From Desulfosporosinus sp. Sb-LF (GTDB taxonomy: Bacteria; Bacillota; Desulfitobacteriia; Desulfitobacteriales; Desulfitobacteriaceae): 41,990 bases of DNA. Positions within the stretch are counted from its first letter, which is position 1; every line of letters begins with the position of its first letter. The stretch spans positions 1 through 41,990 of the forward strand of contig NZ_SPQR01000020.1 of the NCBI RefSeq assembly GCF_004766055.1, read 5' to 3'. Below, piece by piece: positions 24,093-24,995 of the stretch. The position numbers and the translations under genes are program-made. The notes under the pieces were generated by a model. The model searched no databases, was not told where the DNA came from, and saw nothing but the letters and a program-made list of their open reading frames with translations.

Positions 24093-24120
24093 GGTTGTCA
24101 TAACCTTTTTTATAGGAAGC
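24093..24120 (+). repeat. Xer/dif-like site 3
   Basis: Left arm GGTTGTCATAA, centre CCTTTT, right arm TTATAGGAAGC. It separates the GIY-YIG gene from the toxin-antitoxin pair. Confidence 0.6.
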
Positions 24121-24171
24121 AAAGGAATATACTCGCTTCTTTGGGCTGTCGTAGTCACGGTAGACCGCAGG

Positions 24172-24200
24172 TTCACTATAATGGGAAAATACGGTATAAT
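24172..24200 (+). promoter_or_regulatory. Promoter of the mntA-hepT pair
   Basis: TTCACT and a perfect TATAAT are 17 bp apart, with the mntA start 19 bp past the -10 box. The short leader still carries CTGAGGTGA. Confidence 0.6.
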
Positions 24201-24218
24201 ATTTCTGAGGTGATTTTA

Positions 24219-24509
24219 GTGCCAGCTATTAACGATATCCTTGGTAAGCGTGATCAGATTGTCAGTATGGCGTCTCAGTACAAAATTTTTAATGTTAAAC
24301 TATTTGGCTCTGTACTCAGAGAAGAGGAGAACGAGAAAAGCGACATAGATTTTTTGGTTGAGTGTGGAGATGATTGTTCTCTTTTTGACCTTATCTCATT
24401 GAAATATGATTTAGAAGAGATTTTAGGCAGAAAGATTGATGTGGTCACTCCTGATTCTGTACATTGGACATTAAGGGACAAGATACTACAGGAGGCTAGA
24501 CCCATATGA
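24219..24509 (+). CDS. mntA: MNT-family antitoxin nucleotidyltransferase
   Basis: This 96-aa minimal nucleotidyltransferase has the catalytic pattern GS-x10-DxD (GSVLREEENEKSDID) and a later Asp in GRKIDVV. In known MntA-HepT pairs the antitoxin adds AMP to a tyrosine of HepT to silence it. GTG 24219 follows GAGGTGA; a longer upstream frame has no ribosome site and crosses the promoter. Its end overlaps hepT by 4 bp (ATGA), so translation is coupled. The pair fills one interval between dif-like sites 3 and 4. Confidence 0.88.
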   Translation: MPAINDILGKRDQIVSMASQYKIFNVKLFGSVLREEENEKSDIDFLVECGDDCSLFDLISLKYDLEEILGRKIDVVTPDSVHWTLRDKILQEARPI

Positions 24510-24832
24510 AAGATGACAAGGTGTTTCTTCAGAACATTCTAGAGTGCATCGTTAAGATTGAAACATATACCAGCTCCGGTAGAGAAGAATTCATGAGGTC
24601 AGACCTCATCCAGGATGCGGTTATTAGAAATCTTGAAATTGTCGGAGAAGCTACAAAAAGAGTATCACAAGGAATCAAAGAACAACACCAGGAGATTCCA
24701 TGGAGACAAATGGCAGGACTACGCGATGTGTTAATACATGACTACATGGGGATTAGCCTAAAGATTGTTTGGAATGTGGTGCAGAACGAGTTGCCTCAAC
24801 TTAAAATTAAAATAATAGAATTATTGGATTAA
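24506..24832 (+). CDS. hepT: HEPN-domain toxin HepT
   Basis: This 108-aa all-helical HEPN RNase carries the active-site motif Rx4HxY as RDVLIHDY near residues 73-80; the Tyr is the residue AMPylated by MntA in characterised pairs. NLEIVGEATKRVS is typical of the family. It cleaves RNA and stops growth when unmodified. The pair would stabilise the plasmid or its module after segregation loss. Confidence 0.9.
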   Translation: MKDDKVFLQNILECIVKIETYTSSGREEFMRSDLIQDAVIRNLEIVGEATKRVSQGIKEQHQEIPWRQMAGLRDVLIHDYMGISLKIVWNVVQNELPQLKIKIIELLD

Positions 24833-24858
24833 GCACTGGACTTTTTGGTTCAGTGCTT
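24831..24858 (+). terminator. Terminator of mntA-hepT
   Basis: AAGCACTG pairs with CAGTGCTT; the 5' arm overlaps the hepT stop codon, and GTTTGT follows. Confidence 0.65.
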
Positions 24859-24967
24859 GTTTGTATTTGGGGCTTGGGCCCGTCTCGTAATTAATGGAAG
24901 AGCTATTGAAAAAATGCTGAATTATAGTTAACTAAATTTGACCAAAATGAGAAATGGACTTTAAGTT

Positions 24968-24995
24968 ACTTGTTATAGTGTTACTTATCGGACTC
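24968..24995 (+). repeat. Xer/dif-like site 4
   Basis: Left arm ACTTGTTATAG, centre TGTTAC, right arm TTATCGGACTC. It separates hepT from the receiver gene. Confidence 0.7.

Follow-up and report, generated by a model that had tools for sequence, protein, structure and literature searches.

In Acinetobacter, the shuffling of dif modules carries antibiotic resistance genes, and two recent papers, each accessible in part, disagree on module excision (PMC13141974, PMC11705084). According to the accessible sections of the first, C and D modules alternate between inversely oriented sites, and excision needs direct orientation together with identical or nearly identical spacers (PMC13141974); the second, in its accessible sections, found no excision and argued for cointegrates (PMC11705084). 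In its accessible text, a 2019 study states that no pdif sites were present in Psychrobacter or Moraxella plasmids, and that no data were known for other groups (PMC6449649). For the sites cer and psi of ColE1 and pSC101, the available portion of a further paper describes about 200 bp of accessory sequence beside the XerC arm (PMC11724359). The second known system that bears on the present locus is the MntA-HepT toxin-antitoxin kind, in which, as stated in the available part of the source, the HepT RNase is silenced by MntA via AMP transfer to the tyrosine of the motif Rx4HxY; this motif (HEPN) and GSx10DxD (MNT) define the class (PMC7641770).

We analysed a stretch of 41,990 nucleotides, hereafter the window, which is contig C20 of a 4.27-Mb, 30-contig Desulfosporosinus genome and in which a pair of the MntA-HepT kind lies between two dif-like sites. 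Sequence comparison makes it rather likely that this pair rides as a passenger among host dif-like Xer sites arrayed along a Desulfosporosinus plasmid, and that the array trades cargo via XerC/XerD. Like the pdif modules of Acinetobacter, the array consists of plasmid cargo bounded by 28-bp sites with the layout of the host dif and a variable 6-nt spacer, several cargo segments standing in a row with junctions at the sites. Unlike them, the Desulfosporosinus sites are mostly direct, fall into two classes, are accompanied by a conserved leader and a hairpin, and belong to a Gram-positive genus. We regard the array as a new form of dif module, and the toxin-antitoxin pair itself as a further case of the already known MntA-HepT kind. 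In a literature search that covered mostly journals readable without subscription, none of the matches listed concerned dif modules of this sort outside Acinetobacter, and no literature on Desulfosporosinus with a dif site was found.

Profile searches identified ParA-type, PriCT-type and tyrosine recombinase-like proteins and a serine resolvase in the window, and runs of a 24-nt repeat occupy both contig ends (1-98 and 41889-41990). Because of these genes and terminal repeats, the window is probably a circular plasmid of about 42 kb that was broken in its iteron array; an exact terminal overlap of 16 nt or more between its ends was not found. Among the host's proteins are a XerD that scores above its curated cut-off and another Xer protein with 300 bits. 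DNA searches of PLSDB plasmids with window positions 20000-41990 and with the leader gave no match, the window's tyrosine recombinase had no match in the PDB, and Rfam returned nothing at gathering score for the whole window; two weak Rfam matches in 21000-35000, at E up to 1, were taken as chance. The plasmid also carries a full-length gyrB (10281-12257, minus strand; 993.8 bits in TIGR01059) beside hydrogenase maturation genes. Two noncoding stretches, at 1352-1458 and 7540-7650, are alike (82-87%) and precede a hydrogenase-type gene cluster and an L-lactate permease gene, respectively; they are perhaps a common control region. The serine resolvase gene (20881-21459, plus strand) lies just upstream of the first class A site, and an 85% identical relative stands upstream of an array in another congener (G021, L107).

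The segment 24093-24995 holds a type VII toxin-antitoxin operon of the MntA-HepT kind, whose activity is predicted from its motifs and profiles. The first gene, mntA (24219-24509, plus strand), has a GTG start and encodes an adenylyltransferase-type antitoxin of 96 aa (PF18765, 5e-13; PF01909, 2e-12), and hepT (24506-24832, plus strand), which overlaps mntA by ATGA, encodes a HEPN RNase-type toxin of 108 aa (PF01934, 2e-30). Both class-defining motifs are present, GSx10DxD as GSVLREEENEKSDID and Rx4HxY as RDVLIHDY, and each is kept in all seven other alleles examined. Against the NCBIfam models, HepT reaches 62 bits in HepT_toxin (cut-off 60), and MntA 49.5 bits in MntA_antitoxin, which is below the cut-off of 60 for that model. 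As in SO_3165/SO_3166 of Shewanella oneidensis, mnt precedes hepn, PF01909/PF18765 is combined with PF01934 and both motifs occur; the present pair differs in its short HepT, in an MntA under the NCBIfam equivalog cut-off and in being known from sequence alone. MntA and HepT are under purifying selection, with dN/dS values against five alleles of 0.14-0.28 and 0.03-0.10, respectively, two more alleles being saturated at synonymous sites. A -10-like TATAAT (24195-24200), a ribosome-binding site (24207-24213) and a terminator-like hairpin (24831-24863) were recognised by eye. A DNA search for the pair in PLSDB plasmids gave no match; the HepT protein retrieved 1475 records, the best at 61% identity (Synechocystis) and all others below 60%.

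The segment delimited in the sequence-only reading starts precisely with the opening base of site 3 and closes with the final base of site 4, and the pair, its promoter and its terminator do lie between the two. Their fit, which had been called exact, proved to be looser, with a slack of about 50 nt on the left and 80-100 nt on the right: the unit common to other genomes extends about from promoter to terminator (24171-24889, plus strand), blastn alignments to the six closest copies (G024, G001, G012, G004, G022 and G027) ending at 24171-24178 and 24870-24889, that is, at these distances inside site 3 and site 4.

Using a position matrix seeded with five window sites, we found 11 dif-like 28-mers in the window at 24-39 bits, compared with a mean best score of 12.1 bits and an overall best of 16.2 bits in 40 shuffled sequences; as this matrix was built from window sites and dif, diverged sites are missed by it, and the thresholds of 14-18 bits used below were chosen by eye. 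The site pattern with three mismatches allowed gave five matches in the window and none in 100 shuffles. The array opens with a class A site at 21837-21864 (plus strand), which carries a leader of about 175 nt on its XerC side (leader and site together 21662-21864). It continues on the plus strand with site 2 (class B, 23697-23724), whose spacer CATGAA also occurs at a site in G022 (L148), and with the two sites that bound the pair. Site 3 (class B, 24093-24120, plus strand; GGTTGTCATAA/CCTTTT/TTATAGGAAGC) has one XerD-arm mismatch and is, at 24.3 bits, the weakest of the 11, while site 4 (class A, 24968-24995, plus strand; ACTTGTTATAG/TGTTAC/TTATCGGACTC) reaches 33 bits and has, judged by eye, the proximal part of the leader only (about 36 nt), so that it is not among the leader matches. 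Further along the plus strand follow site 5 (class B, 25608-25635, spacer TCTCAG), site 6 (class A, 25811-25838, TGCGGG), site 7 (class A, 27341-27368, TGTGGA), site 8 (class B, 28648-28675, CCTTAG) and site 9 (class B, 30755-30782, CGTTCT), the last with a hairpin directly upstream. The sole minus-strand site, at 31472-31499 (26.7 bits, two XerD-arm mismatches), is followed by the last window site (class A, 34047-34074, plus strand, TGTGAG), so that the classes along the array run A B B A B A A B B a A. All 11 spacers are different, and those of sites 3 and 4 differ at four of six positions. A noncoding repeat of about 130 nt follows three of the sites (25639-25760, 30920-31046 and 34080-34200) and recurs in other Desulfosporosinus loci; it has no Rfam match.

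The dif-like nature of these sites is supported chiefly by the host's own dif, which matches them. The chromosomal dif word CATAATAT[CT][CT]ATTAT.GGAC[CT] is found in the same genome at C17:8972, and the window sites have the same XerD arm. Counted by eye with the strict pattern, this word occurs in 24 of 28 congeners, once in each except for two occurrences in G027; outside the genus, the counts are 9 of 16 for further genomes of the family and 9 of 28 for further genomes of the order. Full dif 28-mers were obtained for 18 of the genomes with the word. An Acinetobacter-type dif consensus gave nothing in the whole genome with up to three mismatches, and the sites follow the dif of Desulfosporosinus instead.

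Similar arrays are widespread in the genus. At least three strict-pattern matches, dif included, were present in 15 of 28 congeners and in none of 71 other genomes; read backwards, the same pattern gave 0-3 matches per genome, three of them in one congener (G016). In 40 congener loci, which were picked around strict matches, 67 sites exceeded 17 bits, compared with none in the reversed sequence, and orientation was uniform within every locus. Together with the window and ten further loci, picked for holding the pair, array-like DNA or strict matches, the total came to 92 sites, with the same orientation in 41 of 43 neighbouring site pairs. Both exceptions involve the minus-strand site of the window at 31472; a match of 16.2 bits in L148, which is under threshold, is also opposite in orientation. 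The sites fall into two classes by the last base of the XerC arm, 47 being A, 43 B and 2 dif, in a listing of all loci but L146, which has no site above 15 bits. Class B sites tend to have a hairpin upstream, with a mean z of -2.08 compared with -0.53 for A, and a hairpin of -10 kcal/mol or lower precedes 19 of 43 B sites but only 6 of 47 A sites. The leader of the first window site (21837), in turn, aligns in register with 16 sites from other genomes, the matches starting at -128 or farther out, and seven of them run in one piece through the site. Among 26 multi-site loci, 16 read A B, A B B, A B B A B or dif A B; the remainder include A A B, A A, B A, B B and B B B. Spacers are highly variable, with 71 distinct words among 90 sites, 11 of which recur at two to four sites. 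In G008 (L094) and G003 (L117/L118), the chromosomal dif is accompanied, at distances of about 8-21 kb, by additional dif-like sites in its own orientation. In two array-bearing contigs, L095 (11.3 kb) and L121 (16.9 kb), the ends overlap exactly by 95 and 52 nt, which would be expected of circular plasmids.

Comparison of related arrays places breaks in homology at the sites. Three contigs of 8-9.5 kb (L099, L109 and L119) have a common backbone and different cargo. Between L099 and L109 we count 6 mismatches in the 400 nt up to and including the XerC arm, then 4 mismatches in the 17 nt of spacer and XerD arm, and no alignment past about +30. In the same way, a 267-nt alignment of L098 with L124 has 94.8% identity and stops in both at +28, where the site itself finishes. 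A cargo ORF is common to L099, L104 and L117; L099 and L117 align as far as their B sites (+2 and 0), and the alignment of L099 with L104 stops 39 nt short of one B site and extends 17 nt into the other. Across genomes, 113 of 268 alignments, which are not independent of one another, have an end at a site, compared with a mean of 6.6 and a maximum of 40 for random placement. After most leader alignments had been filtered out, 16 of 73 still ended at a site (mean 1.8, maximum 9), although the filter is imperfect and at least seven of these 16 are leader pieces. Not every boundary follows this rule: the right junctions of the three sister plasmids have no detectable site, and 28 of 29 loci with DNA similar to the array have no site above 15 bits within the stretch fetched, indicating that cargo-like genes also occur away from sites. 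A relative in G021 of the response-regulator stretch continues past the place of window site 5 and has no scored site there.

These breakpoints also bear on whether the 28-mers are recombination sites at all. Several are intergenic and close to gene starts, and their sequence is partly palindromic, as would be the case for dispersed operators or promoter parts of a regulator. Such a role appears extremely improbable, given that their arms are the same as those of the chromosomal dif of relatives, that a variable 6-nt centre (71 distinct of 90) lies between the conserved arms, and that orientation is uniform whatever the direction of the genes; we rejected it on the evidence that homology breaks at the sites. 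The module reading of the region that had been proposed from the sequence is well supported by comparison, because the sites match the host dif, congeners have arrays, and plasmids diverge exactly at A sites, to which the left junction of one copy of the pair (G024, below) can be added; it stands as a variant that departs from the alternating arrangement of Acinetobacter pdif modules.

The pair itself is less tightly tied to the sites than the array is. We examined its relatives in ten other Desulfosporosinus genomes, six at 87-90% and four at about 71-74% nucleotide identity, the copies of G016 and G025 giving only fragmentary or partial matches. Full copies have about 700-780 bp in common, and their neighbours mostly differ. 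Their contexts are not all independent, since G022 and G027 have a common stretch of 385 bp near the pair; G012 and G004 have longer common stretches at other distances. In nine of the ten genomes there is no credible site near the related pair. A scan of up to 10 kb on either side (less at contig ends, with only 0.5-0.9 kb of left flank in G019 and G001) gave nothing above 14 bits in eight of the ten, G024 included, a match of 14.3 bits in G012 and one of 17.3 bits, 1.2 kb from the pair, in G025. Likewise, 80 loci around HepT relatives contained no match above 18 bits. The sequence-only reading had counted the pair as independent support for a module, and this argument does not hold when the related pairs so rarely adjoin a site; a search for the pair among other genes flanked by the same sites, which it had suggested, returned mostly different neighbours without the sites, apart from the left edge in G024.

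In G024, the nearest copy, homology on the left begins inside site 3 and runs on through 19 nearly identical collinear nucleotides after it (alignment score 40.8, compared with a maximum of 29.6 in 500 shuffles). The G024 site is decayed, with 5 nt missing in the spacer, and was missed by the score matrix. XerD-arm-like words as good as that of G024 (at most one mismatch) occurred by chance in 13 of 400 random 200-nt stretches, and it is therefore the collinear alignment on which this site rests. The reading that no other copy touches a site was rejected, because the left edge of G024 meets this decayed class B site. In no copy of the pair does the right edge lie at a site, the right junction of G024 included, and blastn of the whole window against the G024 contig found nothing beyond the pair and an inverted segment of 34 nt. 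This segment, just upstream of the promoter (24138-24171, minus strand), has a 94% match on the opposite strand beside the G024 pair (L136); there, other alleles resemble the G024 orientation more (GACGACAGCC beside the promoter). By alignment, the hepT of G024 is frame-shifted by a 44-nt deletion, and this copy is thus not a working pair.

It is possible, though on balance doubtful, that the pair never was an Xer module but a roaming, self-contained toxin-antitoxin unit of about 700-780 bp, from roughly promoter to terminator, that landed beside the sites by illegitimate recombination. The mostly different neighbours of the full copies, the rarity of sites near them and the fact that, G024 excepted, the copies lose homology to the window before the sites are reached would be expected of such a unit. 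They are opposed by the common left junction of G024 and the window inside a class B site, with its collinear continuation, and by the 385 bp that G022 and G027 share close to the pair.

That the segment is a standard pdif module of the Acinetobacter type, moving as one unit bounded by its pair of sites, is very unlikely. Sites of 28 bp in an 11-6-11 layout with the host XerD arm and cargo between them are indeed found here, in the host dif and the 11 window sites, and Acinetobacter modules with toxin-antitoxin cargo are known from the accessible text of two sources (PMC13141974, PMC6449649). The sites are, however, direct rather than alternating, and inverse sites with alternating C and D modules, as described in the available sections for Acinetobacter (PMC13141974), were not found, 41 of 43 neighbouring pairs having the same orientation; the parallel drawn in the sequence-only reading thus extends to 28-bp, host-dif-like sites bounding cargo, and not to their arrangement. 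Excision, in the accessible parts of both recent papers, needs direct sites with the same or nearly the same spacer (PMC13141974, PMC11705084), and the spacers of sites 3 and 4 differ at four of six positions. Moreover, class A sites here have a leader, whereas, in the accessible text of one study, the two Acinetobacter sites inspected for accessory sequences had none nearby (PMC11705084). In Desulfosporosinus, toxin-antitoxin pairs do not look like frequent cargo: none of 30 between-site ORFs, a selection from eight other genomes, matched a recognised toxin-antitoxin family pair in Pfam, one having a PIN domain, one a RelA/SpoT domain and 11 no match, among which unrecognised pairs could hide. 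Where the same cargo recurs in different neighbourhoods, junctions at A sites are seen for other cargo, and for this pair only at the left edge in G024.

We therefore return to the pair as a passenger in the array. All evidence for exchange is comparative, and the array would exchange its cargo through the host XerC/XerD. Simple excision of 24093-24995 is unlikely because of the difference between the spacers of its two sites. The most likely route would instead be recombination between sites with compatible spacers on different replicons, forming cointegrates, rather than single modules popping out, because orientation is direct, all 11 window spacers differ and 11 spacer words recur among the 90 sites. 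The pair would have been carried along in such inter-replicon recombination. Presumably it joined the array before it and the G024 copy diverged, its left edge then lying at a class B site; elsewhere it may spread in other ways. Its expected role on the plasmid would be the usual one of stabilising the replicon as a whole. Given the spacers, punishing the loss of just this block, an effect that had been ascribed to the pair, is probably not its main one.

Two further known systems resemble parts of the array. In cer and psi, the accessory stretch is on the same side as the approximately 175 conserved nucleotides that stand in fixed register beside many of the class A sites, namely window site 21837 and 16 found in other genomes, a likeness of position from which site 4 is largely exempt, lacking most of the stretch; in contrast to cer and psi, several class A sites are present on one plasmid. 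Integron cassettes likewise form a direct-orientation array behind a conserved leader, but the Desulfosporosinus sites are dif-like and not attC. None of 29 genomes has an integron integrase above the cut-off of TIGR02249 (265 bits), the best match reaching 124.5 bits and a second piece 97.1 bits, with profile positions 179-228 unmatched between them. The pair was accordingly rejected as a canonical integron cassette; its window copy, in addition, does not have the edges GTTAGAC / GTCTAAC. These edges are found at the G019 copy (L142), which is flanked by hairpin repeats (425-512, 1253-1323 and 1988-2065), one of them with CAGATAAC/GTTATCTG ends, in an arrangement like that of a cassette inserted in an integron attC site; the edges themselves fit the attC end consensus.

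A more far-reaching proposal, which we regard as rather unlikely, is that Desulfosporosinus plasmids are an integron-like cassette platform that runs on the host Xer recombinases and has no integrase of its own. Here, a class A site with its cer-like accessory leader of about 175 nt would be the fixed entry point, cargo would enter on the XerD side of A, and class B sites with their hairpins would close the cargo. The window plasmid and its order A B B A B A A B B a A would then have arisen by Xer-mediated fusion of several small A-B plasmids, now stacked in a row, and the pair, in a B-to-A interval, might be the leftover maintenance gene of one swallowed backbone.

For the passenger reading, which we favour, the lesson of the pair is that being bounded by sites is alone no proof that a gene moves by them. 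Desulfosporosinus would offer a harmless environmental organism in which to study how such modules move, and a second, unrelated Gram-positive genus with direct arrays and accessory-type leaders would suggest that Xer gene exchange arose more than once.
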